Of a DNA stretch of 64,000 nt, positions 11,743 to 49,772 are shown in pieces. The translations under genes were made by a program, and so were the position numbers. A model generated the notes under the pieces. That model saw only the letters and a list, made by a program, of their open reading frames with translations, made no database searches and was not told where the DNA came from. Each line of letters starts with the position of its first letter. Within the stretch, counting starts at the first letter, position 1. The DNA is from Chitinophaga pinensis. Lineage in GTDB: Bacteria; Bacteroidota; Bacteroidia; UKL13-3. The stretch lies in contig CAMARW010000001.1 in the NCBI GenBank assembly GCA_945860865.1, positions 462,294-526,293 of the forward strand, given 5' to 3'.

Positions 11743-11769
11743 TAGGGGTTGGCAAGCGGAAAGAATAAC

Positions 11770-12513: not shown

Positions 12514-12514
12514 T

Positions 12515-15076: not shown

Positions 15077-15085
15077 GCTCATAAC

Positions 15086-15682: not shown

Positions 15683-15728
15683 TTGGCACGATTTTAGAAT
15701 ACGAAATAATAATAAAAATAAAAGAAAA

Positions 15729-16241: not shown

Positions 16242-16258
16242 TTATTAAAATTACTGAG

Positions 16259-16296
16259 AAAAGCCGATACCTATTTGGGTATCGGCTTTTTTTTTT
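16259..16296 (+). terminator. intrinsic terminator after skp genes
   Basis: Perfect 13-bp stem AAAAGCCGATACC / GGTATCGGCTTTT with a 6-base loop, followed by a T run to 16296. It separates the envelope operon from murI, whose start codon is only 13 bases further on. Confidence 0.93.
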
Positions 16297-16309
16297 ATCT
16301 TGCCCTATT

Positions 16310-17149
16310 ATGAACCATACTTTTAAAGCAAATCAACCCATCGGAATTTTTGATTCTGGCATTGGCGGATTAACCGTTGCCCGTGCCATTACCAAGTTAT
16401 TACCCAACGAGCAAATAATCTATTTTGGTGATACAGCCCACATGCCCTATGGTGAGAAAAGTGCAGAGGCCATAAAGCATTATTCAATTAAAATTGCTGA
16501 TTTTTTAAAGTTTAAGAACTGTAAAATGATAGTAATTGCCTGCAATACTGCTTCTGCTGCAGCCTATAGAAGTGTTGTGAAAAGTACAGGTATGAAAGAT
16601 TTAGTGGTAAATGTTATAGACCCTGCAGTAGAGTATGTGGTAAAAAACCATTTTAGGCAAAAGGTGGGTGTTATTGCCACTAAAAGAACCATTAGCTCTA
16701 ATGTATATGCCAAGCGTATTGAAGCTTTAGACCCTGTTTCAGATGTGGTGCAATTGGCTACTCCTTTGCTAGCTCCAATGATTGAAGAAGGTTTTTACAA
16801 TAATAAAATCTCGCAAACGATAATTAACAGCTATCTATCTAAATCAAAATTGAGTAAAATAGATGCCTTAATATTAGGCTGCACACATTACCCACTTATT
16901 AAAACTGAAATTCAAAAGTTTTATGGAAAATCTGTAGAAATTATTGATAGCAGCGAAATAGTGGCCCAGCATGTAAAGGTGGTTTTAGAACGAAATTTGC
17001 TTTTAAACGAGTTACAACCTAGTCGTTTTACCTTTGGCAAAAAATCGCAGTTTTTCGTGAGCGATTTTACCCAAAGCTTCGAAGAAACCAGTAAGATTTT
17101 CTTCGACGAAAAAGTAAAATTGAAACAGTTTAATATCTGGGAAGAGTAG
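16310..17149 (+). CDS. murI: glutamate racemase
   Basis: 279 residues. Makes D-glutamate for peptidoglycan. Motifs: IGIFDSGIGGLTVARAI (catalytic Asp/Ser region), YFGDTAHMPYGEKS, IACNTASAAA with the first catalytic Cys, and LILGCTHYPLI with the second catalytic Cys. It starts 13 bp after the terminator tail. A degenerate -7 box (TATCTTG at 16296-16302) lies 7 bases before the ATG, suggesting its own near-leaderless promoter. Confidence 0.96.
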   Translation: MNHTFKANQPIGIFDSGIGGLTVARAITKLLPNEQIIYFGDTAHMPYGEKSAEAIKHYSIKIADFLKFKNCKMIVIACNTASAAAYRSVVKSTGMKDLVVNVIDPAVEYVVKNHFRQKVGVIATKRTISSNVYAKRIEALDPVSDVVQLATPLLAPMIEEGFYNNKISQTIINSYLSKSKLSKIDALILGCTHYPLIKTEIQKFYGKSVEIIDSSEIVAQHVKVVLERNLLLNELQPSRFTFGKKSQFFVSDFTQSFEETSKIFFDEKVKLKQFNIWEE

Positions 17150-17178
17150 CTTACAAATTTGTTTGATGTGATATCAAC

Positions 17179-18843: not shown

Positions 18844-18917
18844 AATTTGTTTGGTATTGGTTAGGTCAAAGTAATGTTTAAAATACGAAAATAACAAAGG
18901 CTAAATGGTCTGGTAAA

Positions 18918-20159
18918 TTATTGTAAATTCAGTATGGTTTTTTCTATGATATCGCAGGCCTCGTTTACTTGCGTTTCATTAATAACCAGTGGTGGGGCAA
19001 AACGGATAATATCGCCATGTGTTTGCTTGGCCAATAAGCCATTTTTTTTGAGTGCTTTGCAAACATCGTAGGCTGTTTTGCCATTGCCAAAAGGTTTAAT
19101 GATAATGGCATTTAACAATCCACGACCTCTTACTAAACTAATTAAGGGAGATTTTTCTTTGAGTTTTTCCATACGGGCCCTAAAAATTTCGCCCATTTTA
19201 AATGCATTTTCTGCTAAATTTTCGTCAACCAAAACTTGTAAAGCGCTTATGGCAACGGCACAAGCCAATGGGTTTCCACCGTAGGTTGAGCCATGTTCGC
19301 CCGGTTTAACGGTTAGCATTACCTCATTACTACCCAATACCGCCGAAACCGGCAAGGTGCCTCCCGACAGGGCTTTGCCTAAAATTAATAAATCTGGTTT
19401 TACATTTTCATAATCGCAAGCCAACATTTTACCTGTTCTGCATAAGCCTGTTTGCACCTCATCTGCAATCATTAACACATTGTATTGGCTACATAATGCT
19501 CTTACACCTTTTAAATATCCTTCATCTGGCACCACCACGCCTGCTTCACCTTGAATAGGTTCAAACATAAAGGCTGCGATATTGGGGTTGGCTTTTAATG
19601 CCTCTTCTAATGCGCTTAAATTATTGTATGGTATGAGGCTGAACCCTGGCATAAAGGGTCCGAAGCGCTCATAACTGCTGGGATCGTTACTAGAGCTGAT
19701 AGCCGCCATGGTTCTACCCCAAAAGTTACCTTCCACAAACAGCACATGGGCTTGGTTATCGGCCACTTTTTTAACATCATAGGCCCATCTTCTGGCAAGT
19801 TTGATGGCAGTTTCGCCTCCTTCTACACCCGTGTTCATAGGTAATACTTTATCATAACCAAAATAGGCTGTTATGTATTTTTCATATTCGCCTAAAAGGT
19901 TGTTGTGAAATGCTCTACTAGTTAGGGTAAGTTTACTGGCTTGCGTTACCAGCGCTTGTATAATTTGTGGGTGACAATGGCCTTGGTTTACAGCGCTGTA
20001 AGCAGAAAGGAAATCGAGGTATTGTTTGCCTTCCACATCCCAAACATAAACACCTTCGCCTTTTTCTATTACAACTGGTAGGGGGTGATAATTATGCGCA
20101 CCGTGCTCTTCTTCTAAATCTATATAGTATTGTGCAGATTTTTGTCCTTGTTCATCCAT
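18918..20159 (-). CDS. rocD: ornithine aminotransferase (class III PLP transaminase)
   Basis: 413 residues from the ATG at 20159 ([16 protein letters not shown]). The frame stays open 15 codons further upstream, but that part runs into a strong hairpin at 20181-20232, so the shorter start is preferred. Converts ornithine and 2-oxoglutarate to glutamate semialdehyde and glutamate. Motifs: [48 protein letters not shown] lysine in [10 protein letters not shown], and [15 protein letters not shown]. The N-terminal [20 protein letters not shown] matches ornithine aminotransferases rather than acetylornithine ones. Confidence 0.93.
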
Positions 20160-34924: not shown

Positions 34925-36418
34925 TTAATTCAGATTTTCTAAGATCTGACGCATCCTTACTAACTTGTTTTTAACAACAGCCTTCGACACAGAACTATGG
35001 CCAATAATTAAACCTTTGTAATTTGGCGTGCCGAACGAACATGCTTGTAGAGAGTGAACACTTATATTGTTCTGAGTTAATGTTGTAATTATTCTTTTTT
35101 CATCAAAACTCTTTTCTTGAATAGTTATTAAAGATTGTAATCCAAGCATTTTTTGAGGTAGTATTTCCAGACCCATGTTGTTAAAGATTGTCTGAAAAGA
35201 CTGCTTAAAAAACACCTCCCTTTCAGCTACTGTTTCTATCAAATTAATGATATGATTTTGCAGATATTTTTTTTCGATAAATTGGTTCAGCACATATTGA
35301 ATAGAAGGCGCTACGAAACGATGAGAATGTTTTAACATAATTTCTATAGGATTAATAAAATGCTTGGGAACCACCATATAGCCTATGCGAATAGATGGAT
35401 GCAATATTCTATTAAAAGTGCCGAGATAAATAGTTCTTTGTTCTTTATCTAGGGTATAAATTGTAGGCATTGCATTTGAGGAATTATTTAACTCATGCTC
35501 GTAATCATTTTCTATAATAAGCGATTTATTTTTAGATGCAAAATTTAGTAATTCTTCTCTTCGTTTCATAGACATTTGTTGGCCCATTGGATATTGACAG
35601 GAAGGAGTAACATGTATTAATTGTGGTTTTACTTTATTTTGCTCTAAATGAGAAACCATCATTCCTTCTTCATCTAATGGAGCAGCTTCAATATTTGCTA
35701 ATAAACCTGTAAAAATGGCTTTCACATTTGGGAAAGTTGGATCTTCTAGTGCTATCTTATCTGCTGGATTTAAAAAGATTGTTCCTAATAAATATAAAGA
35801 CTGTAAAGAGCCTGAAACTATAATCACTTGAGATGGCTCACAATGTAAATTGCGACTTAAGTTTAAATAATTACTAATATTTTCCTTTAATCTTGAGATG
35901 CCTGAAGAAGGAGAATAAGCCAGGTTCGAAAACTTTATTTCTTTCCAATACATGTCTGATAACTTTTTCCATTGCTTTACTGGAAAAATATCTAATGGGG
36001 GTAAGCCTGGACTAAAAGCAGTTTCTTGTTGACTACTAGAAATTGGTTTTGAACCAATTTGAATAAATGATTTGCCAATTTTTGAAAGAGATGGATAAAT
36101 ATTAGCCTTAAATTCTGTTTTTAGAGGTAAAACAGACTCCCTAGATTTTACAATATAACCTGAGCCAGGGATAGAAATAATTAATTCATCTAACAATAAA
36201 ATATCATATACCCGCAAAATTGTACTGCGCGACACTTTAAGGGAATGAGCTAAAGTACGCGTAGGTGGCATTACTGTTTTTGCAGGAATCTCTAATTTCA
36301 TAATCATTCTGCTCAAAAGTTTATATATAATCACATATTTTTTTTCTCTATACTTTTCTGCTTCATTATCAATTTGAACCAAATATTCGTTTAGTATTTT
36401 TTTTATAAGTATGGGCAT
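34925..36418 (-). CDS. MocR/GabR-type transcription regulator lacking the PLP lysine
   Basis: 497 residues from ATG 36418 (MPILIKKILNEYLVQ); the frame is open 20 codons upstream, but that part crosses the intergenic operator and promoter region. N-terminal winged helix of the GntR type (about 28-92; PTRTLAHSLKVSRSTILRVYDILLLDELI, GSGYIV), linker, then a fold-type I aminotransferase-like domain (about 135-497) with ENDYEHEL, the Asp that contacts the PLP ring. At the usual Schiff-base Lys site (GTFSK in family members) it reads GTFNR, codon 35408-35410 AGA, so Arg337 replaces Lys. It is divergent from the lamin-tail/iadA operon, which it probably controls. Confidence 0.88.
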   Translation of the reverse strand: MPILIKKILNEYLVQIDNEAEKYREKKYVIIYKLLSRMIMKLEIPAKTVMPPTRTLAHSLKVSRSTILRVYDILLLDELIISIPGSGYIVKSRESVLPLKTEFKANIYPSLSKIGKSFIQIGSKPISSSQQETAFSPGLPPLDIFPVKQWKKLSDMYWKEIKFSNLAYSPSSGISRLKENISNYLNLSRNLHCEPSQVIIVSGSLQSLYLLGTIFLNPADKIALEDPTFPNVKAIFTGLLANIEAAPLDEEGMMVSHLEQNKVKPQLIHVTPSCQYPMGQQMSMKRREELLNFASKNKSLIIENDYEHELNNSSNAMPTIYTLDKEQRTIYLGTFNRILHPSIRIGYMVVPKHFINPIEIMLKHSHRFVAPSIQYVLNQFIEKKYLQNHIINLIETVAEREVFFKQSFQTIFNNMGLEILPQKMLGLQSLITIQEKSFDEKRIITTLTQNNISVHSLQACSFGTPNYKGLIIGHSSVSKAVVKNKLVRMRQILENLN

Positions 36419-36485
36419 AATTGGTATGATTATTATAATTAAATTGGCATGCCAAATATATAATTTAGCAGAATACATTTGAGAT
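36419..36485. promoter_or_regulatory. divergent operator/promoter region of the mocR and lamin-tail/iadA operons
   Basis: Perfect 12-bp palindrome TTGGCATGCCAA at 36444-36455. A 10-bp direct repeat AATTGG(T/C)ATG lies at 36419-36428 and 36442-36451, offset 23 bp. Plus-strand -7 box TACATTTG at 36474-36481, 30 bases before the 36512 start, has no TTG at normal spacing. Minus-strand -7 box TATATTTG (complement of 36453-36460) overlaps the palindrome. The layout suggests autorepression of the regulator and activator-dependent transcription of the operon. Confidence 0.5.
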
Positions 36486-36511
36486 AAATTATATCAAATA
36501 AATTAAGCATC

Positions 36512-38437
36512 ATGAATAAAATTTACCTGATACTCTTTTTAATTTTGAGTGCCCACTCATATACAAGCGCACAACTTATAATAAATGAAGTTTTATACGA
36601 TCCCTCAAATACTGCACTTGAAGGAGATGCCAATGGAGACAGTATATACAGTCAAACTGAGGATGAATTTATTGAATTTGTTAATACTGGAATAACTCCT
36701 TTGAATGTAAGTGGGTATCAAATAATAGACGATTCTGCTAACAATACCATAGTTTTTACTATCCCTAACGGAACTATAATTCCACCCAATGGTGCATTAG
36801 TTATTTTTGGTGGCGGTAATCCAAGAGGCTTATTTGGCGGGGCTACTGTATTAGCAGATACAGGCGCTGGGCTAAACCTAAATAATTCTGGAGAAATCAT
36901 TTTAATTAAAAACGCATTAGGTCAAACCATACTTAGATTTAATTCTGATGAGTTGTCTAATAATCCCAATGAATCATATACGCGATCGCCAGATTTGACT
37001 GGTAATTTTGTACAGCATACAGTGGTTAATAGCAGAAAATTTTCTCCTGGAACAAAGCTAAATGGAACACCGTTCATTACTGGATTTCCTAAACAAATTA
37101 CCTTTAAAGTAGATTTAAGTAAGCAAGTTCAAAGCATAGACAGTGTGTTTATAAGCGGCAATTTTAATTCATATTGTTTGTCATGCACACCGCTAACAGA
37201 TATCAATAATAATCGCGTTTTTGAGGCTTCTATTTCAAGTTTATTAGATACCTTTTACTACCAGTTTGTTTACAAAATAGAAAATTCTTACATAGAAGAA
37301 GGCCTAGTTTTAAGTGCTTGTACCCAAGAAGTAAATGGAAAACAAATGCGCTTTTTGAAAGTGGGTTCAGACAGTATTTTAGGAGCAGTATGTTTGGCAG
37401 AATGTATGGCTTGTAAACCAGAATTATCTTTAAAGGGTGTTACAGATTTTATTACTCCAGAGCGAGGTAATAGCGGGAAAGCCATTCATTTATTTGCAGA
37501 TTCTACTATTTCTAATTTAAGTATATATGGTTTGGGAGTTGCCAATAATGGAGGTGGTACAGATGGGCAAGAGTATCGTTTCCCTGCTATTTCTGTTTTG
37601 GCGGGCACGCATATCTTACTTGCGAGAGATACCTCAGCCCTTCTGCCGTATTTTGGTGAATGTAAAGAGAATTTTGGTTTATTTTTAATAGACAACCTAG
37701 GAATAGTAAATCAAAATGGTAATGATGCCATAGAGCTTTTTAGAGCAGGTTCTGCCATTGAAACCTACGGAAATGTAAATGAGGATGGAACGGGTAAAAC
37801 ATGGGAATACACGGGTGCTTGGGCATATAAAACGAATACAGGAATTTGGATAAATGGCCAAATTAATTGCACAGACAGTACAGAAACTATATACGATAGT
37901 GAGTGTATTTACCCTATTTGTGCTGATGTAAAAATAACTCAAATTACAGTAAACAGTAGTAGCAATACAATTTCTACGCCAGCTGGTACGCTTAGTTTAA
38001 GCGCTCAAATATTGCCTGCAAATGCGCCCAACAAATCCATTGTTTGGAGTGTTGATTCGCCCAATATAGCGAGTATAAATAATAATGGAATTTTAACAGC
38101 AATTGCCAATGGCGTGGTGGTAGTAAAAGCAAGTTCTACGGATGGTTCTGGTGTTTTTGGAACTAAAACAATAACCATTAGTGGTCAGTCTAATGCAATA
38201 CAGCCTGCACAAGATATTATTTTTTCTGTGCACCCAAACCCTGCTAAAGATTTTATTTACATTACATCTTCTATATCTCCAACAGCCTACGTTATCACCG
38301 ATATGCTTGGTAGCACCAAAGAAAATGCCTCTTTGCAAAACAGAGAAATTAGCCTAAAGGAACTTGGTTCAGGCATCTATTTTATGGATATATACTTTGG
38401 TGAAAGCTTGCAAAGAATTAAGATAATTAAGCACTAA
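36512..38437 (+). CDS. T9SS-secreted lamin-tail-domain protein
   Basis: 641 residues. Signal peptide to about 20. Lamin-tail domain (about 21-185; LIINEVLYDPSNTALEGD, EDEFIEFVN, SPGTKLNGTPF). Starch-binding-like beta domain with five or more Cys (about 190-300; VFISGNFNSY, CTQEV, CLAECMAC). A second lamin-tail-like domain (about 305-465; IELFRAG, GTGKTWEYTGAWAYKTNTG). BIG2-type Ig domain (about 470-555; VWSVDSPNIASINNNGILTAI). T9SS sorting domain to the end (FSVHPNPAKDFIYI, SGIYFMDIYF). It is surface-exposed; no catalytic motif is seen. First gene of a tightly packed seven-gene operon. Confidence 0.85.
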   Translation: MNKIYLILFLILSAHSYTSAQLIINEVLYDPSNTALEGDANGDSIYSQTEDEFIEFVNTGITPLNVSGYQIIDDSANNTIVFTIPNGTIIPPNGALVIFGGGNPRGLFGGATVLADTGAGLNLNNSGEIILIKNALGQTILRFNSDELSNNPNESYTRSPDLTGNFVQHTVVNSRKFSPGTKLNGTPFITGFPKQITFKVDLSKQVQSIDSVFISGNFNSYCLSCTPLTDINNNRVFEASISSLLDTFYYQFVYKIENSYIEEGLVLSACTQEVNGKQMRFLKVGSDSILGAVCLAECMACKPELSLKGVTDFITPERGNSGKAIHLFADSTISNLSIYGLGVANNGGGTDGQEYRFPAISVLAGTHILLARDTSALLPYFGECKENFGLFLIDNLGIVNQNGNDAIELFRAGSAIETYGNVNEDGTGKTWEYTGAWAYKTNTGIWINGQINCTDSTETIYDSECIYPICADVKITQITVNSSSNTISTPAGTLSLSAQILPANAPNKSIVWSVDSPNIASINNNGILTAIANGVVVVKASSTDGSGVFGTKTITISGQSNAIQPAQDIIFSVHPNPAKDFIYITSSISPTAYVITDMLGSTKENASLQNREISLKELGSGIYFMDIYFGESLQRIKIIKH

Positions 38438-38450
38438 TAAACAAGGTAAA

Positions 38451-39410
38451 ATGACTCATTTTAAAACACTAGGTTTGTTGCTATCAACTGTATTGTTGTG
38501 TCTATTTGGATGCAAAACAGAAGATGTAAAACCCATTATAAATACCAATAACAATAGTCTTGTTAAGCTAAGCGTAAGTAGCAATACTCTTTCAGAGGAT
38601 GCTGGGGTAACACAGCTTATAGTGAGTTTAAATGAACTATCGTCGGGCGACGTAAAAGTTTATTTTAAATTCAGCGGTACTGCAAGTAATGGGGTAGATT
38701 ATACCTGCAATGATCAAATTACGATTAGTGCCGGAAGCCTGCAAAATCAGAGCAGTTTATTGAGTATACAAGATACACTCAAAGAAAGCAATGAAACCAT
38801 TGTAATTAGCATAGATTCGGTTGTGGGTGGTTTGGAAGATGGTAGTCAATCTGTAGTAATTACCCTAGAAGACGATGATTCTAATTTGGGAGGTAATTTA
38901 ATTATAAATGAAGTATTGTACGACCCATCTAATAATGGTTTGGAAGGCGATGCGAATGGAGATGGCGTTTATGCACAAAATGAAGATGAGTTTATAGAAT
39001 TTTTCAATAATTCATCTAAGCCAATAAACATAGGAGGCTTTAAAATTTATGATGCTACCGGATTAACCAATAGAGTGCCTAGGCATGTGGTTGCAAGTGG
39101 AACAATCATTGCGCCCAACAAAGCTTATGTGGTATTTGGCGGTGGAACATTAACGGGTATTTTCGGAAACGCAACGGTTGAAAAATCAACTACAGGCGAT
39201 TTAAATCTTAATAATGCAGGTGATTTTATAACGGTTGAAGACAGTTTAGGATTAGTAGTAGTAACATTTGATATTACTCCTTTATCTGATAATCCCAATG
39301 AATCTTACACGCGTGATCCAGACATAACGGGTGGTTTTGTGCAACACGGCGGACTTTCGAATGGATTTAAATTTTCGCCCGGTACAAGAAATAATAGAAC
39401 AGCATTTTAA
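38451..39410 (+). CDS. lipoprotein with Calx-beta and lamin-tail domains
   Basis: 319 residues. Lipoprotein signal with lipobox LFGC (Cys21), Calx-beta-like domain (about 38-145; LSEDAGVTQLIVSLNELSSGDVKVYFKFSG, NETIVISIDSV), then a lamin-tail domain (about 148-315) closely similar to the first domain of the preceding protein: INEVLYDPSNNGLEGDANGDG, EDEFIEFFNN, NPNESYTRDPDITG, KFSPGTRNNRTAF. It ends right after that domain with no T9SS signal, so it is lipid-anchored. The shared DANGD-x-x-Y-x-Q-x-EDEF stretch could bind a cation. It is a paralogue of its neighbour by partial duplication; 7 bp to dcuC. Confidence 0.83.
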   Translation: MTHFKTLGLLLSTVLLCLFGCKTEDVKPIINTNNNSLVKLSVSSNTLSEDAGVTQLIVSLNELSSGDVKVYFKFSGTASNGVDYTCNDQITISAGSLQNQSSLLSIQDTLKESNETIVISIDSVVGGLEDGSQSVVITLEDDDSNLGGNLIINEVLYDPSNNGLEGDANGDGVYAQNEDEFIEFFNNSSKPINIGGFKIYDATGLTNRVPRHVVASGTIIAPNKAYVVFGGGTLTGIFGNATVEKSTTGDLNLNNAGDFITVEDSLGLVVVTFDITPLSDNPNESYTRDPDITGGFVQHGGLSNGFKFSPGTRNNRTAF

Positions 39411-39417
39411 ACCTACG

Positions 39418-40797
39418 ATGATGGCTTATTTTGGATTAATTTTATCGATACTCGTTATTGCGATAGTTGTTAAGCTGTTGGTAAAAGAAATTTTTCCGCA
39501 AGCTGTATTGCTGCTTGCAGGGCTTCTAATGATTTTTGTGGCTCATTTATTTCCAGATTTTTTTACTAAAAATTTGGAGCAAAACAACAACCCACTATTT
39601 GATACATTTGAATTCTTAAATAAATCATTCTCTTCCATTAATGCAGGGGTTGGATTAATGATTATGGCCATTGGAGGATTTGTGGCCTATTCAGATAAAA
39701 TTGGTGCTTCAGAAGCCATGGTAAATATAGCTTTAAAGCCGCTTTCCTTTTTTAAGAAGTACCCCAATTTTGCTTCTGTTTTGGTTATTCCAATTGGTCA
39801 ACTCATTTTTATTTGTGTGCCTTCTGCTGCTGGTATGGGCTTATTAATGATGGCATCTGTTTTTCCAATTATGGTTAATTTAGGAGTAAGTAGGTTAGCA
39901 GCCGTTTCTATTATAACAGGTTGTACTTCCTTTTGTATTGGTCCGGCTTCTGTAATTACAGCCTCTGCCACTCAAATTGCTAAAATAGATACAGTACCTT
40001 ATTTTATAGATATGCAAATACCTATTGCCATTATCTTGAACCTAGTATTGATGCTTTCTTACTTTTTTGTCAATAAATATTTCGATAAAAAACTGCCAAA
40101 AGAGGAAGTAATCCATACCAATATTTCAAAGGAGGCAGGTAGTAAAGCGCCAGCGTATTATGCTATTATTCCTATTTTGCCTTTGATGTTATTGCTTTCG
40201 TTTTCGGGTGTTTTTCAGATATTTCCCCTCGACCTAAAAATTGAAACCACCACTGCCATGTTTTTTAGTTTATTGGTAGGTATGGTCTTTGAGCTTATTA
40301 GAAAAAGAGATATTAAGGCAGTTTTAAGTGGATTAAAAACTTTTTTCGACGGCATGGGAGATATGTTTAAATCGGTAGTAACTTTAATAGTTTCGGCCGA
40401 AATTTTTGCAGGTGGATTAATCTCTTTTGGGTTTATAGACGGCCTAATTAACCTTTCTCAAAATTTAGGAATAGGTGCTTTAGGAATTGGAGTGCTTATG
40501 ACCATACTTATATTTTTGGCTGCTATGCTTATGGGAAGTGGAAACGCAGCCTTCTTCGCATTTGGTCCGCTTATACCAAACGTGGCCGCAAAATTTGGCG
40601 TAAAAGCTACCTCTATTTTATTACCCATGAACCTATCTGCTTCTATGGGAAGAGCTATTAGTCCTATTGCAGGAGTTTTAATTGCCACTGCAAGTGTGGC
40701 AAAAGTGCCAGTAGTAGATGTAGTAAAACGCAATTTAATTCCTGTTTTTTCCGTACTAATTACCTTATTAATATATCATTTCGGATTATGCTTTTAA
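39418..40797 (+). CDS. dcuC: DcuC-family C4-dicarboxylate transporter
   Basis: 459 residues from ATG 39418 (MMAYFGLILSILVIAIVV); an in-frame upstream ATG would overlap the previous gene and add unrelated residues. About 11-12 membrane helices. Conserved stretches: GVGLMIMAIGGFVAYSDKIGASEAMV, CVPSAAGMGLLMMASVFPIMVNLGVSRLAAVSII, FCIGPASVITASA, and LMGSGNAAFFAFGPLIPNVAAKFG near the C terminus. Length is close to E. coli DcuC. Family members carry succinate, fumarate or aspartate across the inner membrane. The iadA start codon lies inside its last codons, so import or export of the Asp released by IadA is the natural reading. Confidence 0.88.
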   Translation: MMAYFGLILSILVIAIVVKLLVKEIFPQAVLLLAGLLMIFVAHLFPDFFTKNLEQNNNPLFDTFEFLNKSFSSINAGVGLMIMAIGGFVAYSDKIGASEAMVNIALKPLSFFKKYPNFASVLVIPIGQLIFICVPSAAGMGLLMMASVFPIMVNLGVSRLAAVSIITGCTSFCIGPASVITASATQIAKIDTVPYFIDMQIPIAIILNLVLMLSYFFVNKYFDKKLPKEEVIHTNISKEAGSKAPAYYAIIPILPLMLLLSFSGVFQIFPLDLKIETTTAMFFSLLVGMVFELIRKRDIKAVLSGLKTFFDGMGDMFKSVVTLIVSAEIFAGGLISFGFIDGLINLSQNLGIGALGIGVLMTILIFLAAMLMGSGNAAFFAFGPLIPNVAAKFGVKATSILLPMNLSASMGRAISPIAGVLIATASVAKVPVVDVVKRNLIPVFSVLITLLIYHFGLCF

Positions 40798-41927
40798 TAA
40801 AAAATGCCTTTACCTATGCACCTAATTTCTTAGGTAAAAAAGATATTTTTATCGTTCATGGGAAAATTGCGGCTATCGAAAATGTGATAGATTTACCCTC
40901 GCTTAAATGCCAAGTTTGGGATGCACAAGGAAAAATTATTACGCCTGGATTTATAGATCAACACATACATATTACAGGTGCGGGTGGCAAACATGGCTTT
41001 GGTTCTATGACGCCCGAAATAGCCTGCAGTGAATTGGTTCAAACCGGATCTACCACGGTGGTTGGCTTATTGGGAACAGATGGTGCAACACGCAGTATAA
41101 AAAGTTTGTTTGCCAAAACAAAAGCGCTTACTAGTGAAGGATTATCGGCCTATATGTTTACGGGTTTTTATGGACTTGAACCAACCTTTATTACCAACTC
41201 CTTACAAGATGATATGATGTTTATTGAGCCCGTTTTAGGCTGTAAGGTGGCGATATCAGACATTCGTTCTGATTACCCAACAGATTTGGAATTGGTGCGA
41301 CTCCTTCGTCAAGTTTTGGTAGGTGGCATGCTGGCTAATAAAAAGGGTGTTTTGCATTTGCACTTGGGTAATTTAGACTGCAAAATGGATTGTTTATTTA
41401 GATTGGTAAACGATTATCAATTTCCTATTTCACACATTTCGCCAACGCATGTAGGAAGAACCAAAGCACTTTTTGAGGAGGCCATACAATTTGCTTTATT
41501 AGGCGGTTCCATTGATATTACAACAGGTGCCTCTAAATATGCAGAGCCCTATCAATCTGTTTTATATGCGCTCGATAAGGGAGTTTCGGATGATCTACTT
41601 ACATTTAGTTCGGATGGAAATGCAGGTTTAGATAAGTTAGACGAAAATAAAAAACTTATTGGTTTTAGAAAGGCACCTATCAATCAAAATTATCTTCAAT
41701 TTAGGGAGCTTTCTAATACGGGTGGGTTGCCAATAGAAGTGGCACTAAAGCCTATTACAAGCAATCCTGCTAGGAATTTGGGACTTAAAAATAAAGGGAT
41801 AATTGCCGTGGGTGCTGATGCAGATTTTTGCGCTTTAACAGAAGATTTAACCTTAACTGATGTAATTGCTAGAGGACAAATAATGATGGAAGATTCGGAA
41901 GTAAAAGTTAAAGGTCATTTTGAATAA
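40788..41927 (+). CDS. iadA: isoaspartyl (beta-aspartyl) dipeptidase
   Basis: 379-residue cytoplasmic amidohydrolase that splits beta-Asp-X dipeptides. Metal ligands and substrate residues map onto the E. coli enzyme: His59/His61 in GFIDQHIHITGAGGKHG, carboxylated Lys153 in GCKVAISDIRSDYP, His192 in LHLHLGN, His221 and Arg224 in SPTHVGR, and catalytic Asp276 in FSSDGNAGL. The C-terminal block PITSNPARNLGLKNKGIIAVGADADF is typical of the superfamily. It overlaps dcuC by 10 bases. An isoaspartyl dipeptidase between a dicarboxylate carrier and a porin/peptidase set indicates a dedicated peptide pathway rather than protein repair. Confidence 0.93.
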   Translation: MLLIKNAFTYAPNFLGKKDIFIVHGKIAAIENVIDLPSLKCQVWDAQGKIITPGFIDQHIHITGAGGKHGFGSMTPEIACSELVQTGSTTVVGLLGTDGATRSIKSLFAKTKALTSEGLSAYMFTGFYGLEPTFITNSLQDDMMFIEPVLGCKVAISDIRSDYPTDLELVRLLRQVLVGGMLANKKGVLHLHLGNLDCKMDCLFRLVNDYQFPISHISPTHVGRTKALFEEAIQFALLGGSIDITTGASKYAEPYQSVLYALDKGVSDDLLTFSSDGNAGLDKLDENKKLIGFRKAPINQNYLQFRELSNTGGLPIEVALKPITSNPARNLGLKNKGIIAVGADADFCALTEDLTLTDVIARGQIMMEDSEVKVKGHFE

Positions 41928-41930
41928 ATT

Positions 41931-43235
41931 ATGAAGCAAATACATGTTATTTTATCTGTTTTTTTGCTTTGCTTTTACATTCAAGTAAGTGCTCAAAATC
42001 CCATTTTAAATTCGTATAAACTGGGTGAAGGAATTACTTTTTCTGATAAAGAAAAATCGAGTATAACCTTATCTGGATTTATACAACCCTTCATGGAAAT
42101 TAGGTCGTACAACGCAGATAGCGCTTTAGATTCGTATACCCGTTTTAGAATGCGCCGCTTGCGATTTAGAATTGCAGGAGATTTGCCTAAATATAAAATA
42201 AGCTATCGCTTTCAAGCCGATTTGAGTGGCACACCCGAAGTGGGTGATTCAACAGGTAATTCACTTTTTGATGCTTGGGTAGCTTATACACCCATTTCTA
42301 ATGTGGAGATAAAATTTGGACAAAGCAGCAATTTTACAGAAAATAGAGAAATACTCATGAGTTCAAATAGTCTTCAATTGGTAGAGAGAAGCAGATTAAC
42401 CTCTGCCTTTGCAGTGCCGCGAGAAGTGGGTTTGTTTATTTCTACAGATTTTAAAATAGGTAATTCGTTTTTTGTTGAACCAAATTTTTCTATAACCAAT
42501 GGCGATGGAGGAAATGTTATGGGGAACGATTTTGGTGGCTTTAAATATGGCGCTAGGATAGACTTTACACCCTTTGGTAAATTTGTAAACCTGGGTAAAT
42601 TTAGACAAGGCGACCATGTGAGAGAATTAACCCCTAAGTTAATTTTTGGCGTAAATTTTAGTTACATAGATGGCGTAAGCAGCAGAAGAGGGGAAGCCAG
42701 CGGAACCATCTTATATTTAAATAGAAATATGGAAACAAGCTTACCCAATTATAGAAAAATGGGGGCTGATTTTTTGTTTAAATACCAAGGATTTAGCTTG
42801 CTCGGAGAATTTATGAACGGGCATGCAAGCGTTCCTAACGACATTGTATTTAGGGTGAGAGAAAATGGAACTATCACCAATTCTTTCGACATTGAAGGTA
42901 GACAAGATATGCCCAATTATATCAGAAATAGAATGATTATTGGGAGTGTTTACAATATACAAGGGGGCTATAATTTTAAACGAAAATTTTCTATCGATGC
43001 AAGATTTACCCACTTTGATGCAGCACAATATTCCTTTTTAAACAATAATACCATTTACAATCGTCCTAATTATTATACGATAGGTATAACCAAGTTCTTT
43101 AGCAGAAATCACGGACTAAAAATACAGGCCGCTCACACTATGGTGAAAGCGGGTTCTGGAGCTTTAGATATAAAAGGAAATGCTATTAAGCAATACGAAA
43201 ATATCACACATGTAATGGCTACTTATTCTTTTTAA
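41931..43235 (+). CDS. porin, O/P family, first copy
   Basis: 434 residues. Signal peptide to about 22, then an outer-membrane barrel of the OprO/OprP (phosphate-selective porin-like) type: ITLSGFIQPFMEIRSY, RFRMRRLRFRIAGDLPKYKISYRFQADLSG, DAWVAYTPISNVEIKFGQ, and a final strand HVMATYSF with terminal Phe. Ligand preference cannot be read from the sequence; phosphate is not implied. It is the same family as the gene at 44764, with matching blocks (GQ---F--NRE, LQ--(E/N)RS, REVGL/REFGL). Gaps of 3 and 2 bp to its neighbours place it in the operon. Confidence 0.86.
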   Translation: MKQIHVILSVFLLCFYIQVSAQNPILNSYKLGEGITFSDKEKSSITLSGFIQPFMEIRSYNADSALDSYTRFRMRRLRFRIAGDLPKYKISYRFQADLSGTPEVGDSTGNSLFDAWVAYTPISNVEIKFGQSSNFTENREILMSSNSLQLVERSRLTSAFAVPREVGLFISTDFKIGNSFFVEPNFSITNGDGGNVMGNDFGGFKYGARIDFTPFGKFVNLGKFRQGDHVRELTPKLIFGVNFSYIDGVSSRRGEASGTILYLNRNMETSLPNYRKMGADFLFKYQGFSLLGEFMNGHASVPNDIVFRVRENGTITNSFDIEGRQDMPNYIRNRMIIGSVYNIQGGYNFKRKFSIDARFTHFDAAQYSFLNNNTIYNRPNYYTIGITKFFSRNHGLKIQAAHTMVKAGSGALDIKGNAIKQYENITHVMATYSF

Positions 43236-43237
43236 AT

Positions 43238-44767
43238 ATGAAACAGTTAGCTTCTATTTTTATCCTATTGGTATTGCTAAGTTTTACCCATAACTTTAAT
43301 CCGCAATCAAAAGAAATTACCCAAAAGTATTTTCCAGATTTTGATTATGAAATAAATACACCTGCTTTTACAAAGAAAAAGGGCTTCACTAATTACAATG
43401 AACTAATGGACTTCCTGAACCAACTTCAAGCAAGTAATTCTGATAAAATGCAAATTACATTTATTGGAGAAAGTCAGTTAGGTAAAAAAGTGCCTTTTGT
43501 TAAAATTAGTAAAGCAAACAATCAGCCTAAATTAAAAGTATGGTTTCAGGGTGGTTTGCATGGAAATGAAATGGCCAGTACAGAATGTGTTTTATTCTTA
43601 TTAGATAAAATCTTAAACGACCCTAAACTAGCGTATTTGTTAGATAAAATTGATATTGCTTTTGTGCCTATGGCCAATATAGATGGCTACGAAAAACAAG
43701 ATAGATACGCTGCCAACGGACTAGATTTGAATCGAGACCAAACCAAACTCATCATCAAAGAAAGTAAGTTTTTAAAACAGTGTTTCAGCGATTTTAATCC
43801 GCATGTTGCCATCGATTTTCACGAATATAATCCTTACAGAAAAGACTTTGCTCAACTAGGAAATAACGGGGTTACTTCGAGGTATGATGTAATGTTTATG
43901 AGCTCAGGAAATTTGAATGTACCTCAAAAACTAAGAGATTTTACCAATGAAGTATTTATTAAAGATGCCCAAAAAGCGCTTTCCCAATTAAATTTGAGCT
44001 TTCAAGAGTACAGCACCACCCACGTAGAATTGGGCGAATTACATTTTAGTCAGGGCTCTAACAATGCACGCTCTAGTGCCACCTCTTACGCCCTGGCAAA
44101 TACCGTTTCTACCTTGATAGAAATTCGCGGCGTTGGTATAGATAGAACCTCTTTTAAAAGGAGAATTTATACAGGTTATGCCATCGGATTATCTTATTTA
44201 GAAACGGCTTATCAAAATTTCAATCAAGTTTTAGAGGTTCTAAACAATGCAAACAAGGAAGCTAAATTGGCCATAGTAAGCAGTAAAAAAGAATCAAGCA
44301 AACAACAAATGAAATTCATAAGTTTAGAAGATAATGAAGAAGTAAGTATTGAAGTGCTTGTTAAAAATGCGAGTAAAAGCAGCCCAACCTTAAGCAGAAT
44401 GTATCCTCATGCCTATCTAATTTTGCCAGATAATGAAGCCGTTGTTTCGCGCTTAAAGATTTTAGGAATAAAGGTAGATACTTTGCAAAATGACACCCTT
44501 ATTTCGGTAGAATCTTATTTAATAAATGCCTACAAGAAAGGGAATACCCTAGAAGAGGGTGTTTATTTACAAGACGTAAAAGCAGATTTGGTTCAAGAAA
44601 ATATAAGATTTGTTAAAGGAACCTTTTGGGTTGGGCTGAACCAAGAAAACGCCAATTTAGCTATTGAAGTATTAGAACCAGAAGCCCCAAATAGCTTTGT
44701 TTTAAACAGTATTATCCCTGCTCAATTGGGCAGTAAACTTCCCATTTATAGATTTGTACAGAAATGA
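43238..44767 (+). CDS. M14-family zinc carboxypeptidase, exported
   Basis: 509 residues. N-terminal signal-like helix (about 1-17). Peptidase domain about 45-325 with Zn ligands His108 and Glu111 (GGLHGNEMAS) and His195 (AIDFHEYNPY), carboxylate-binding Asn165-Arg166 in GLDLNRDQT, and catalytic Glu295 in TLIEIRGVG: a full M14 set, so it should be active. About 180 further residues form a C-terminal beta-rich region of unknown role. It removes C-terminal residues from peptides, probably in the periplasm. It sits between the two porins and overlaps the second by 4 bases (ATGA). Confidence 0.9.
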   Translation: MKQLASIFILLVLLSFTHNFNPQSKEITQKYFPDFDYEINTPAFTKKKGFTNYNELMDFLNQLQASNSDKMQITFIGESQLGKKVPFVKISKANNQPKLKVWFQGGLHGNEMASTECVLFLLDKILNDPKLAYLLDKIDIAFVPMANIDGYEKQDRYAANGLDLNRDQTKLIIKESKFLKQCFSDFNPHVAIDFHEYNPYRKDFAQLGNNGVTSRYDVMFMSSGNLNVPQKLRDFTNEVFIKDAQKALSQLNLSFQEYSTTHVELGELHFSQGSNNARSSATSYALANTVSTLIEIRGVGIDRTSFKRRIYTGYAIGLSYLETAYQNFNQVLEVLNNANKEAKLAIVSSKKESSKQQMKFISLEDNEEVSIEVLVKNASKSSPTLSRMYPHAYLILPDNEAVVSRLKILGIKVDTLQNDTLISVESYLINAYKKGNTLEEGVYLQDVKADLVQENIRFVKGTFWVGLNQENANLAIEVLEPEAPNSFVLNSIIPAQLGSKLPIYRFVQK

Positions 44768-46002
44768 AAAATACCATAAAATCAACCTTCGTTTTAGCAC
44801 TGCTTGTTTTGCCTTTTGCCTATTCCTTAAATGCTCAAACAGCAGAAAATACCGGGCAAATTAAAGAGGAATATCATTTAAGTAAAGGACTTAAATTTAA
44901 CCTGAACAATGGTGCTTATCAATTTGGAATAGGAGGGCTTATACAACCTTCTATTCAGTTAAATAGAGATACCGCAGGCGCAAATAAGTTTGGTTTAAAT
45001 TCTTATAGAACGTTTTTTAACTTATCTGGCAAAGCGCTCAAGGAGAAAGTGTCGTTTTTTGTGCAAACAGATTTTAATTTAACCAGTCCGCTCATGGATG
45101 CATGGGTTGCCTACCAAGCAGCACCTTTTCTGAAAATTACCTTGGGTCAACAATTAACTTTTGCCAACAATAGAGAAATGGCCTTAATGGAAGGCAACTT
45201 GCAGTTTTTAAATAGGAGTCTTTTAAGCAGACAATACGCCAATACCGGTAGAGAGTTTGGACTTTATGTAAACGCAAATTTTAAAATTAAAAATATGGTA
45301 TTTGAGCCAGGTATAGCCATAACATCTGGTGATGGAAGAAATTCTTTTGGTGCTAGTCCTACCGATTTTGATTTAGGTGGATTTAAATATGCAGGTAGAT
45401 TAGATTGGTATCCTTTTGGTAAATTTTCTGACCCAAATAATTTACTTGTGGCCGACATTACAGCTGAGGAAAAGTTTAAGCTTGTTTTGGGAGCCGCAGC
45501 AAGTGTAAATAGGGGAGCTAGCGACATGCATGGAGAAGGGCATGGTAATTTTTTAATGTACAACCCACAAGGGAAATTGCAACTTCCAGATTATAGAAAG
45601 CTCTATTTTGATGCCTTGGCCAAATACAAAGGCTTTTCATTATTGGGCGAATATGTAGTAGCTACAGGAAAAGTTTCGCAAGGAACTTTTAGAGATGTAA
45701 CCGGATTAAACCGCCTAAACCCAGGTGAGATTAGTGAGTTTTTAGCGCTTGGTTCAGGCATAAATACCCAGCTTGGCTATGTGTTTAAAAAATCTATTGG
45801 AGTAGATATGAGGTATGCTTTTGTGAGTGGTGAGTTTGCTAACAATGCAAAAAGTTTGGTAGAAGAAAAAAGTGAGTTAGCGGTGGGCTTAACCAAGTAT
45901 ATCGATAAGAATAATTTAAAAATTAATACATCGATTGCTCAGATAAATACCAGCACTAACTCAACTTTATTTGCTTCTTTTTGGGTTCAACTTATGTTTT
46001 AA
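44764..46002 (+). CDS. porin, O/P family, second copy
   Basis: 412 residues. Signal peptide to about 25, then FGIGGLIQPSIQLNRDTAG, SYRTFFNLSGKALKEKVSFFVQTDFNLTSPLMDAWVAYQAAPFLKITLGQQLTFANNREMALMEGNLQFLNRS, and the terminal barrel strand ASFWVQLMF. It shares about six blocks with the 41931 porin and is a diverged tandem copy, with the peptidase gene between them. The start codon overlaps the peptidase stop. Last gene of the operon: it ends 2 bases from the convergent T9SS gene, so no separate terminator space exists. Confidence 0.85.
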   Translation: MKNTIKSTFVLALLVLPFAYSLNAQTAENTGQIKEEYHLSKGLKFNLNNGAYQFGIGGLIQPSIQLNRDTAGANKFGLNSYRTFFNLSGKALKEKVSFFVQTDFNLTSPLMDAWVAYQAAPFLKITLGQQLTFANNREMALMEGNLQFLNRSLLSRQYANTGREFGLYVNANFKIKNMVFEPGIAITSGDGRNSFGASPTDFDLGGFKYAGRLDWYPFGKFSDPNNLLVADITAEEKFKLVLGAAASVNRGASDMHGEGHGNFLMYNPQGKLQLPDYRKLYFDALAKYKGFSLLGEYVVATGKVSQGTFRDVTGLNRLNPGEISEFLALGSGINTQLGYVFKKSIGVDMRYAFVSGEFANNAKSLVEEKSELAVGLTKYIDKNNLKINTSIAQINTSTNSTLFASFWVQLMF

Positions 46003-46004: not shown

Positions 46005-47306
46005 CTAATTGAACTTTACAATTCTTTTGGTTTGAACCGAACCGCCTTGGGTAATGTTAATGAAGTAAACTCCATTAGTTAAATGGTCTGTTTTGATTTC
46101 GGCCATTTGATTGCTTAAAGTTTCAGTGATTAATACTTTACCTGTTAAATCAACAATTTCAACCTTCTCTATAGTGTTAACACTGTTAAGTTTAATTGCA
46201 TTTGCAAATGGATTTGGACTTAGCTCTACTGCACCTATTTCACTTGTTACAGAAACTATTGGCGAATACTCATATTTTCCATCGAAGTCTATTTGTTTTA
46301 ACCTGTATAAAGCAGATTCTTCACCCGAAACTAAATAGGTATACGACTGAATTTTATCTGAATTGCCGAAGCCTTTTACAAAATCTAAAGTTTCAAAGTT
46401 TTCACCATCTAAGCTGCGTTCAACTTCAAAACCTTTGTTGTTTCTTTCTTGGGCTGTTCTCCAGATTAATTGTGTGCCTACACCTGGATTAATTACGCCA
46501 CTAAAGTTAACCAAATTTACAGGCAGAGGTCCGTTAGCCCAAGAGTTTGAAACCCTTATTCCATCTATTACACCATTCATGGTTCCAACAGTTCCTTGTC
46601 TAATGGCAACAGAATTAAATACAGCTAAATCTGCAGTACCGTGATCTGGGGCAATAATAGTGGCAGTGGTTGGCTCTAAAGAAGGGATACCACTAGTAAA
46701 AATATAAGCAGATGCAGTATCAGAAAATGCAGAATTAAAGCTATACTTTACTACTACCAATATAGTTGAATCTAATTTATAATCTAATGCAGAATAAGCA
46801 GGAGCTGCGTTTGAGCCCTTATTTATTCCAATTTTATATGTACCAGTTGTAGAGCCATCCCTGAGAAATATACGCGTTCTGAAAGCAGTAATAAATGACG
46901 TATCCATAATGTGAAAGAAATAATCACCAACGGTGCCACCTGAAGCTGTCATTTTTAATAAAAAAGATACATATACATTTCCCGAGTTGATAGTTTGCAC
47001 ATTTCTATGCGCATCTTCAGCACTCGCAGATAAGAATGTAAATCCAGCAGATCCTCCCAAGCCTGAAGAATTATACCCTGCATAAGATAGGGAAGTACCT
47101 AAATACTTTAACGGATTTCCGGTGCCACTATGCCTGCGCCATCTTTGACTACCTAATGTAGGATTTCCTCCAAAACTTGGATTGCAAAGAGTGTCTGCTG
47201 ATGTTCCAGTGATAGCTCCATAGGAATAATTTTCAATAACAGTTTGTGCATTGCTATAAAATGCACTAGCTAAAAATAATACGATAAGTAAAAATTTGTT
47301 TTTCAT
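46005..47306 (-). CDS. T9SS-secreted protein with lectin-like N-terminal domain
   Basis: 433 residues. Signal peptide to about 20. An N-terminal domain (about 22-255; IENYSYGAITGTSADTL) resembles that of the large protein at 23538: matching blocks are G-(V/I)YYS/VYVSFLLK, TGTYKIGINKG, FTSG(I/F)PS/T-EPTT, and AIRQG----V-DGIR(V/I)S--WA. A linker PLPVNLVNFSG and an Fn3-like part (WRTAQERNNKGFEVERSLDG) follow. The T9SS sorting domain is at about 360-433 (ELSPNPFANAIKL, VEIVDLTGKVLI, NGVYFINIT, KRIVKF). Surface protein without a visible catalytic site. Confidence 0.85.
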   Translation of the reverse strand: MKNKFLLIVLFLASAFYSNAQTVIENYSYGAITGTSADTLCNPSFGGNPTLGSQRWRRHSGTGNPLKYLGTSLSYAGYNSSGLGGSAGFTFLSASAEDAHRNVQTINSGNVYVSFLLKMTASGGTVGDYFFHIMDTSFITAFRTRIFLRDGSTTGTYKIGINKGSNAAPAYSALDYKLDSTILVVVKYSFNSAFSDTASAYIFTSGIPSLEPTTATIIAPDHGTADLAVFNSVAIRQGTVGTMNGVIDGIRVSNSWANGPLPVNLVNFSGVINPGVGTQLIWRTAQERNNKGFEVERSLDGENFETLDFVKGFGNSDKIQSYTYLVSGEESALYRLKQIDFDGKYEYSPIVSVTSEIGAVELSPNPFANAIKLNSVNTIEKVEIVDLTGKVLITETLSNQMAEIKTDHLTNGVYFINITQGGSVQTKRIVKFN

Positions 47307-47337
47307 TTTTTATGTGGTTTAAGTTGTTTTTCTATTT

Positions 47338-48249
47338 TTAGGGATATAATAAATTCGAAGCGTAAATAGATGCAACAGCATTATCATGGCCTACATTTTT
47401 CATAATTTGGTATTTCCAGTTGAACGCAAAACCTTGGTTTAAACAAGTATTTCTACTTTGCAAATAAAAATAATTTGCCCGAGTTAACCTATTTATTCCT
47501 TGCATATCTACTATATCATTTCTTCTCAAATCTGCTGCATTTGGATTGTTATCATTCTCTCCTACAATTATAAACACATTTTTTGAGAATAATGTTTGAA
47601 ATGAATAGTTTTGAACTGGGGAGTCTTTAATGCCATAAGGAAAGCGGAGGCTTGAATCTACCATTGTATACCATCCAGCTGCCGAAATAACTGCATTTTT
47701 AATTTTGCTTTGTGGCTTAAATAATAAAAATCGCTGCGCAAATTGAGCTCCTGCCGAATGTCCAAAAATATCATAAGTTAGTACCTGCGATTGAATGCTA
47801 GACTTAACATATTCAAACATAGGGTCAAGCACAGAGAATGTCCATTCTTCCTCTTTATTTAGGCTTGCCGCACTGGGGTTGTCACCGTCTACAAAAACAT
47901 TTCCCAAATTATAAGCATCGCCGCCAGGGAAGTCGTTCTCACTAAATTCTGGTACCAACACAATGCAATTTTTTCCTAAGTTCTGAAAAGCATTTCTTGT
48001 GGCTGAACCTATTCTTTCTGTGCCATGAAAAGCAAATAAAATCGGTGTTTTGGCATTAGCGCCCGGAGGAATATAAAAATAAACAGTGATTGGTTTTTCT
48101 TTAAATGGGGCATAGCCTGTATATACAAAAGAACCACTTCCATTTAGCCTACTCAAATCTAATTGGTCATCGGAGTTGATAATGGGCGCCTTTTCAACAC
48201 ATGCCGAAAAAAAGAAAAAATATAGCAGATAAACCAAGCCGTTTTTCAT
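47338..48249 (-). CDS. lipoprotein alpha/beta hydrolase (PHB depolymerase/esterase-like)
   Basis: 303 residues. Lipoprotein signal with lipobox FFSAC (Cys17). Alpha/beta-hydrolase features: TPILFAFHGTERIG, nucleophile elbow FGHSAGAQFAQRF (Ser about 170), acid region VGENDNNPNAADLR, and His in KNVGHDNAVASIY near the end. Probably an envelope-anchored esterase; substrate unknown. I checked whether GHSAGA could be a cyanophycinase-like (S51) site, but the whole fold order is that of an alpha/beta hydrolase. Gap of 31 bp to the T9SS gene downstream on the same strand. Confidence 0.82.
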   Translation of the reverse strand: MKNGLVYLLYFFFFSACVEKAPIINSDDQLDLSRLNGSGSFVYTGYAPFKEKPITVYFYIPPGANAKTPILFAFHGTERIGSATRNAFQNLGKNCIVLVPEFSENDFPGGDAYNLGNVFVDGDNPSAASLNKEEEWTFSVLDPMFEYVKSSIQSQVLTYDIFGHSAGAQFAQRFLLFKPQSKIKNAVISAAGWYTMVDSSLRFPYGIKDSPVQNYSFQTLFSKNVFIIVGENDNNPNAADLRRNDIVDMQGINRLTRANYFYLQSRNTCLNQGFAFNWKYQIMKNVGHDNAVASIYASNLLYP

Positions 48250-48356
48250 GAAGTAAAATTACCTCAAATCAGTCGCCTAAAAGCATACCAATTTGCACTT
48301 ATTTAGCAAGCCAATTTAATACGCTACATGCTGGAAGTTATAAATAGATGCCTGAT

Positions 48357-49664
48357 TTACAAATAAAAACTTGTAATAATAAATCCACACAACACTGTTA
48401 CAAATGTCATAACCAAGCCCGGAACCATAAAACTATGATTAAAAAGATATTTGCCCACGCGGGTAGTTCCTGTTTTATCAAAGTTCATGGCAGCCACTAA
48501 AGTTGGGTAACTTGGAATCACAAAATCGCCACAAACTGCCGGATAAATGGCCAATAAATTGGCAGGCAATATGCCCAATTTAACCCCCAAAGGCATTACC
48601 GCTTTTACGGTTGCGGCCTGACTAAACAATAAAGCCGCCATAAAAAACACCGCTATGGCAAATACCCAAGTATGATCGGCAACTACGCCCTTTAAACTCT
48701 CAGATAAGAATACTTCGTTGGCATTTATAAACGTATTGCTCATCCAAACAACACCAAAAATAGAAACAATAGCCTCGGTACCTGCCGTAAATATGCTGCT
48801 TTTTGCAATTTGGTTTGCTTTGGCTGAACCTAATAAAACATTAATTAGAACCACAGTTAACATAATTAATTCTATGGTTTGAATCATGCTTACTTTTCTC
48901 AATGAAGGAATTAATCCGAATAATACAATAAGAAACACGCCTGATAGAAACACGCCTACACTGGCTTTTGCTCGCCAAGAGTGATTTTTTGTTTGGTCTA
49001 CAGTATCCGAAAATGCAAGTGCTTTCGAAAACTCAGGGTCTTTTAATTTTTCAAGGTAAACGGGGTCTTTATCTAAATCTTTGCCCATAAAATGGGCCGC
49101 TATAGCTCCCGCAAATAGCCCAATTAAACTAGCAGGTAAAACCACTATCACTATGTCTATTAGTCCAATGGTATTTCCAGCTATTCCCTGTAATTCGGAC
49201 AACATCCCAACCGTGGCTGCTGTTATCGGACTAGCTACGATTCCAAAATGGGAGGCTACTACAGAAATGCTTAGTGGGCGTTCTGGACGAACTCCCTTTT
49301 TAGCAGAAACCTCTGCAATAATGGGCAATAAAGAATAACTAATATGGGCTGTGCCCGCCAATAAGGTAAATACAAAAGTTACTAAGGGTGCAATAAATGT
49401 AATGGATTGTGGTTTTTTACGAATAATAGTTTCTGCCACGCTCACGAGATAATCCATGCCTCCACTCACTTGTAACGAGGCTGCCGCTGTAACTACACAT
49501 AAAATAATGAGCATTACATCTACAGGAGGACTACCAACCGGAAGGTTGAAAATATAAACATAAATTAAAGTGCCCAAAGCGCCCATTATTCCCATTCCTA
49601 TACCTTTGAGCTGAGAGCCAACCAGTATAAGGGCTAGTAATATAATAAGTTGAATCCAAAACAT
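48357..49664 (-). CDS. dcuB: anaerobic C4-dicarboxylate transporter, DcuA/DcuB family
   Basis: 435 residues from the ATG at 49664 (MFWIQLIILLALILVGSQ); 11 upstream in-frame codons are soluble in character and unlikely to belong. About 10-11 helices. Family signatures: SLQVSGGMDYLVSVAE, LLAGTAHISYSLLPIIAEVSAKKGVRPERPLSISVVASHFGIVASPITAA, LLFSQAATVKAVMPLG, and IPSYPTLVAAMNFDKTGTTRVGKYLFNHSFMVPGL, the last closer to DcuB. Exchanges aspartate, malate or fumarate with succinate across the inner membrane. It is unrelated in family to the DcuC-type carrier 8 kb away. Confidence 0.9.
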   Translation of the reverse strand: MFWIQLIILLALILVGSQLKGIGMGIMGALGTLIYVYIFNLPVGSPPVDVMLIILCVVTAAASLQVSGGMDYLVSVAETIIRKKPQSITFIAPLVTFVFTLLAGTAHISYSLLPIIAEVSAKKGVRPERPLSISVVASHFGIVASPITAATVGMLSELQGIAGNTIGLIDIVIVVLPASLIGLFAGAIAAHFMGKDLDKDPVYLEKLKDPEFSKALAFSDTVDQTKNHSWRAKASVGVFLSGVFLIVLFGLIPSLRKVSMIQTIELIMLTVVLINVLLGSAKANQIAKSSIFTAGTEAIVSIFGVVWMSNTFINANEVFLSESLKGVVADHTWVFAIAVFFMAALLFSQAATVKAVMPLGVKLGILPANLLAIYPAVCGDFVIPSYPTLVAAMNFDKTGTTRVGKYLFNHSFMVPGLVMTFVTVLCGFIITSFYL

Positions 49665-49772
49665 GCAATTAGATTTAAAACCACAATAATGGTGCAAATT
49701 ATTTATAAACTATAATCAAATTTAGTACGAGGTAATTTTTAAATTTGTACTTGCTATTAGCAACCATAAACT

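Follow-up and report, generated by a model that had tools for sequence, protein, structure and literature searches.

A candidate MocR-linked regulon for an anionic beta-linked polymer in Chitinophaga pinensis

Poly(aspartic acid) hydrolase-1 (PahZ1) is known from Sphingomonas KT-1 and Pedobacter KP-2, both isolated from river water (PMC4456602). The Pedobacter enzyme cuts the beta-amide bonds between Asp units of thermal polyaspartate, and PahZ1 is related to the polyhydroxybutyrate (PHB) depolymerases, which are esterases (PMC4456602). One known cyanophycin utilisation locus combines a cyanophycinase, iadA and a transporter (PMC10206079). The polysaccharide utilisation loci of Bacteroidota join surface proteins, outer-membrane transport, a secreted depolymerase and one regulator. 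Here we consider a locus that is like each of these in part: a MocR-type regulator, a divergent operon that encodes porins and an IadA homologue, and a PahZ1 homologue beside it. It lies in a 64,000-nt stretch of Chitinophaga pinensis, a bacterium of freshwater (GCA_945860865.1, contig CAMARW010000001.1, positions 462,294-526,293). We call this whole stretch the window, and coordinates below are positions in it unless another locus is named.

On balance we favour reading this locus as a MocR-controlled regulon of about ten genes that would scavenge an extracellular, anionic, beta-linked polymer or oligomer of C4-dicarboxylate units. The substrate class, poly-beta-aspartate-like or poly-beta-malate-like, is fairly supported. 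An earlier note on this DNA described seven tightly packed genes divergent from the MocR gene, and all eight genes are found where it placed them. Its limits, 34925-46002, are too narrow, since two further genes, convergent with the operon at 46005-48249, are part of the set. The features are these:

34925..36418, minus strand: MocR-type regulator with GntR and aminotransferase domains; the open reading frame reaches 36478; the pyridoxal phosphate (PLP) lysine of GabR is replaced by arginine (GTFNR)
36421..36450, plus strand: operator-like direct repeat TTGGTAT-N16-TTGGCAT between MocR and the operon
36512..38437, plus strand: LTD1, with a lamin-tail domain (LTD), a second repeated domain (aa ~300-470), Big_2 and a type IX secretion system (T9SS) sorting tail; isoelectric point (pI) 4.7
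38451..39410, plus strand: LTD2, a lipoprotein with Calx-beta and LTD domains; pI 4.3
39418..40797, plus strand: DcuC C4-dicarboxylate carrier, an NCBIfam equivalog above cut-off; open reading frame from 39331
40788..41927, plus strand: IadA homologue with Glu77->Lys, G74A, R83M and S289G and its metal ligands kept
41931..43235, plus strand: Por1, an outer-membrane porin with a fold nearest to OprP/OprO; pI 9.5; conserved arginine cluster R73/R75/R76
43238..44767, plus strand: M14 zinc carboxypeptidase-like protein, secreted (PF00246); H108/E111/H195/R166/E295 invariant
44764..46002, plus strand: Por2, a second porin; pI 9.3
46005..47306, minus strand: T9SS-tail secreted protein, in one unit with the PahZ1 homologue
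47338..48249, minus strand: PahZ1-type poly(aspartic acid) hydrolase homologue with a lipoprotein-like signal and Ser165-Asp233-His288
48285..48314, minus strand: operator-like copy TTGGCTT-N16-TTGGTAT, 65 bp upstream of the PahZ1 homologue; its first half is degenerate, and relatives have the exact repeat

MocR probably begins at 36418, not at 36478, because the start codon aligns there in relatives. From this start there are 93 bp between MocR and LTD1, and this region holds the conserved operator-like repeat. The DcuC reading frame opens inside LTD2, and the start in relatives corresponds to 39418/39421; with that start the gaps in the operon are 13, 7-10, -10, 3, 2 and -4 bp. Pfam and NCBIfam bear out the families that had been assigned to MocR, the LTD proteins, DcuC, IadA and M14.

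The PahZ1 homologue matches two PDB entries of poly(aspartic acid) hydrolase-1, 6ve6 (E=1e-52, 37% identity) and 9o7u (E=3e-46, 33%). Like the Sphingomonas and Pedobacter enzymes, it is a secreted alpha/beta-hydrolase with a Ser-Asp-His triad, and the Pedobacter enzyme likewise comes from the Bacteroidota. This triad is kept in 30 of 30 aligned sequences. In a tree the homologue falls on the PahZ1 side of a weakly supported fork (59/88), and LpqC forms a long branch. The known PahZ1s are tied only to the degradation of thermal polyaspartate, whereas this one lies with porins, M14, DcuC and an IadA homologue in a set that is conserved and linked to MocR. No natural substrate of PahZ1 was found in the literature searched. 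Plasmid records were searched for an annotated PahZ1 locus; they gave 8 distant matches, and the one annotated neighbourhood gave no information. Of the T9SS-tail proteins only the orthologue (at least 52% identity) tracks the cluster. We rejected the idea that this protein is strictly cluster-specific, since its paralogues are widespread.

The set is conserved. The IadA homologue is present in 13 of 64 genomes of the family, and the order MocR<>LTD1-LTD2-DcuC-IadA-Por1-M14-Por2 is kept in every family locus long enough to judge. Relatives sharing this order have 51-79% protein identity. The M14 orthologue is found in 12 of the 64 genomes and the PahZ1 homologue in 10, all within the 13, and neither has a match in any family genome outside them. 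The three cluster genomes that have no PahZ1 homologue are 65-81% complete. Fisher tests of co-occurrence with the IadA homologue, which ignore phylogeny, give p values of 4e-12 for M14 and 2e-9 for PahZ1. A survey of 395 genomes across the phylum adds just three with a close IadA homologue; all three have the cluster, with the hydrolase adjoining MocR. A shorter form occurs in Flavobacterium, Lutibacter and a Cytophagaceae metagenome-assembled genome (MAG), and also in three genomes of other families. Flavobacterium and Lutibacter retain DcuC-IadA-Por1-M14-Por2 with an LTD lipoprotein, and this core with an LTD protein is preserved class-wide. One strain with the core, Flavobacterium succinicans LMG 10402, is in culture. 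In the Cytophagaceae MAG (L023) the hydrolase is within the operon and has a C-terminal extension that resembles a T9SS tail. The same order recurs in relatives, so the arrangement is far beyond chance, and in its gains and losses the cluster behaves as one block. The earlier note had suggested a check for co-occurrence across Bacteroidota, and had named free variation of the neighbours as a refutation; the outcome is that the neighbours do not vary freely. This sustains its view of the locus as a regulated uptake and degradation module.

The two transcription units share an upstream repeat. In the alignment of the MocR/LTD1 intergenic region it appears as AATTGGTAT, a direct repeat whose period is 23 bp. 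A search of 43 long related loci, 775 kb in all, gives 16 occurrences of the pattern TTGGYAT-N16-TTGGYAT, against 0 in shuffles. Nine occurrences are at MocR/LTD1, 7 are about 50-90 bp before the PahZ1 homologue, and there are none elsewhere in these loci. A genome-wide scan with looser spacing finds both sites in four genomes (G005, G014, G018, G036) and, in G352, the one on the PahZ1 side, as well as scattered background matches. Read on the opposite strand, the repeat core gives ATACCA, which we take to be the half-site of B. subtilis GabR. Within the family PahZ1 is confined to cluster genomes, and the repeat stands before both units, so these units are probably one regulon for an extracellular beta-linked polyanion. 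MocR would act at the direct repeats of both.

The regulator itself matches PF00392 and PF00155 as well as GabR (4n0b, E=3e-36). It is like other MocR/GabR regulators in having a winged helix-turn-helix and an aminotransferase-like domain, an intergenic direct repeat and a position divergent from its probable target genes. It is unlike them at the PLP-binding lysine. GabR Lys312 forms the internal aldimine (PMC6917764), but the GTFSK of GabR reads GTFNR here, with Arg for Lys312 in 13 of 13 genomes with a full-length copy. With this lysine lost, it seems unlikely that MocR senses an amine through the usual PLP aldimine.

Neither porin has a match in Pfam. The best fold matches of Por1 are OprP and OprO (TM about 0.6), and Por1 has invariant arginines. 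OprP and OprO are phosphate and polyphosphate porins. Both porins of the cluster are basic, in contrast to the very acidic LTD proteins. The M14 model (pLDDT 90) has a carboxypeptidase A fold, and its nearly invariant Arg278 appears, from its place in the sequence, to lie near the expected S1' position, where it would fit an acidic terminal residue. The acidic, beta-linked character that the earlier note gave the substrate is strengthened by the PahZ1 homologue and the anion-type porin, both of which are new to that reading. Unrelated C4-dicarboxylate carriers are found near cluster copies: DASS (L079, L080), DctA-type (L023, L086) and DcuB in the window. The DctA-like carriers match DctA better than GltP. 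The window's DcuA/DcuB-type anaerobic carrier (48357-49697, minus strand) is directly upstream of the PahZ1 unit. Its membership in the regulon is not supported, as no repeat precedes the gene and relatives do not have it close to the cluster.

The second domain of LTD1 (aa 300-470) recurs in loci L078, L080 and L089. Locus L089 (genome G116, 9732-19413) has a SusC/SusD-like pair, a DASS carrier and PahZ1 with no IadA homologue, and its lipoprotein carries two copies of this domain. Genome G108 (L078, 1-1324; L104) has a second, diverged PahZ1 at the far end of its cluster, adjoining a protein with four copies. A distant variant (L097, L098, L100) has LTD-type, PahZ1-like, M20/M42-like and distant M14 proteins in other orders. 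It also has TonB-like and porin-like genes, an antiporter and an RpiR-like regulator, and Pfam recognises AbgT and a Na+/H+ antiporter in L100. In a Lutibacter locus (L022, 722-7082) a TonB receptor, a DUF5689+LTD lipoprotein and an endonuclease/exonuclease/phosphatase gene are directly upstream of the core. A contig filed as a Klebsiella pneumoniae MAG (L025) has a Bacteroidota-type DcuC-IadA(Lys77) pair and a T9SS-type protein, which is probably a binning error.

The earlier note had IadA cleaving beta-Asp-X dipeptides. Family membership holds: the homologue scores 361.8 bits against the TIGR01975 cut-off of 331.25. It is like EcIadA, CpIadA, LmIadA and FiBAP in belonging to the M38 family by sequence and in its binuclear metal ligands (H68, H70, K162, H201, H230 and D285 are intact), its Lys162-type centre and its Arg169, Arg233 and Thr106. 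The activity is doubtful. Lys stands at the position of EcIadA Glu77 in every copy of the cluster, in 21 of 21 genomes (20 full sequences and the partial L025), and the full-length copies also have G74A, R83M and S289G. Tyr137 is either Tyr or Phe (Phe in five copies). The Lys77 branch has 100/100 support, and the canonical relative nearest to it (46%), which comes from Photobacterium, keeps all four residues. Glu77 is kept in the compared canonical and cyanophycin-linked IadAs, and in studies of the E. coli enzyme it is reported to contact the substrate alpha-amine. The Glu77->Lys change and the other pocket changes beside an intact metal site argue for an enzyme that is probably active, but is not an ordinary isoaspartyl dipeptidase. 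E77, T106 and R233 are listed as substrate-binding in LmIadA (PMC10206079). The FiBAP study assigns the equivalent Glu to acid-base catalysis, and the E80Q variant of CpIadA was needed for trapping a ligand (PMC7774594).

From homology we infer a series of steps, and with them the substrate, the direction of transport, the cellular locations, the binding of MocR to the repeats and the sign of regulation. The LTD surface proteins and the T9SS-tail protein would bind the polymer, and the secreted PahZ1 homologue would cut its beta-bonds. The two OprP/OprO-type anion porins would admit oligomers, and a periplasmic M14 would trim their carboxyl end. DcuC would move C4 acids or short units over the inner membrane, behind which the IadA homologue would split the last beta-linkage. 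MocR would sense an intermediate and act on the direct repeats before both units. A polysaccharide utilisation locus has the same general parts, but here OprP/OprO-like porins take the place of SusC/SusD. Pfam/NCBIfam profiles and the gene list show no SusC/SusD pair in the window cluster, and relative L089 joins such a pair with PahZ1.

Several observations weigh against this regulon. The PahZ1 homologue also matches LpqC, which is PHB-depolymerase-like (3d0k, E=3e-27, 25% identity), and the sole known PahZ1 substrate is synthetic. The window's own repeat before PahZ1 is degenerate in one half. MocR does not adjoin the Flavobacterium and Lutibacter copies, PahZ1 is absent anywhere in the genomes of the Lutibacter copies, and the PahZ1 of Flavobacterium succinicans is unlinked to the cluster. 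The core may therefore act on a substrate for which PahZ1 is not required. One can imagine, as the earlier note proposed, an uptake of beta-Asp peptides that stem from aged protein, with M14 as the trimming enzyme and IadA as the one that frees Asp. The TIGR01975 score and the retained metal ligands, Arg169, Arg233 and Thr106 fit this. In Photobacterium (L133) a canonical Glu77 IadA adjoins a DcuC-family carrier, so the pair either predates the residue change or arose repeatedly, and this keeps an aspartyl substrate alive. However, Lys77 is present in all 21 genomes, G74A, R83M and S289G are fixed on the same branch, and five copies have the Phe137 that lowers EcIadA activity about three orders of magnitude (Y137F, PMC7774594). 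An IaaA-type beta-aspartyl peptidase is already encoded at another place in the genome (its match scores below the equivalog cut-off), and the linked PahZ1 is left unexplained. We consider this scenario unlikely. Cyanophycin (beta-Asp-Arg), which was also suggested, is far less plausible still. The scavenging logic, the transporter and a last step that splits a beta-linkage would be alike, but the locus here has a PahZ1 type for cyanophycinase, and cyanophycinase is absent from every cluster copy. The cyanophycinase-adjoining IadAs of the phylum are another branch with Glu77 kept. The genome also has a separate locus with CphA (TIGR02068), cyanophycinase (TIGR02069) and the IaaA-type enzyme at C1:104-112 kb, about 390 kb off, which makes cyanophycin unlikely for the cluster. 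We therefore rejected this reading. That locus (L105, about 104000-112000 of contig C1 of the same genome, G000) is outside the window; the genome's only cyanophycinase copy is at C1:109 kb, adjoining CphA, and relative G005 (L106) has such a locus too.

Returning to a beta-linked polymer of C4-dicarboxylates, there are two main choices for its unit. What PahZ1 is known to cleave speaks for poly-beta-aspartate, and so do the peptidase families M14 and IadA. Poly-beta-malate gains support from the carrier types and from the fact that the IadA homologue and MocR have both lost residues that recognise an amine. Given such a polymer, an aspartate amide (L-, D- or N-blocked) is the leading candidate at rather less than an even chance, a malate ester comes second, and something else is the least probable. 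Poly-beta-malate, with malate taken up via C4-dicarboxylate transporters, is thus a specific form of the favoured reading, and we put it forward tentatively. Both amine-linked features, IadA Glu77 and the GabR-type PLP Lys312, are lost, the nearby carriers are of C4-dicarboxylate types, and the PHB depolymerase kin of PahZ1 are esterases (PMC4456602). Some bacteria are known to live on polymalate (PMC9210645). Nevertheless, M14 and IadA are peptidase families, and the Comamonas polymalate hydrolase is described as a 43 kDa protein with no serine-esterase activity, unlike PahZ1. The loss of residues is no proof of a new substrate either, since D-isoaspartyl or N-blocked aspartyl substrates also fit. 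A literature search found no bacterial polymalate-hydrolase gene and no LTD/IadA locus. It is possible, though doubtful, that PahZ1-type enzymes are natural polymalate depolymerases and that IadA and MocR were re-tooled for a hydroxy-acid unit by losing the residues that recognise an amine.

This locus gives one PahZ1-type enzyme a conserved natural gene set and a probable regulon, which may show the role of PahZ1 in nature. It also provides a MocR branch that has no PLP lysine. A branch of IadA passes the curated isoaspartyl dipeptidase model without a residue of the substrate site, so automatic annotation of this branch probably misleads. Should polymalate prove to be the substrate, these would be candidate bacterial genes for its use.

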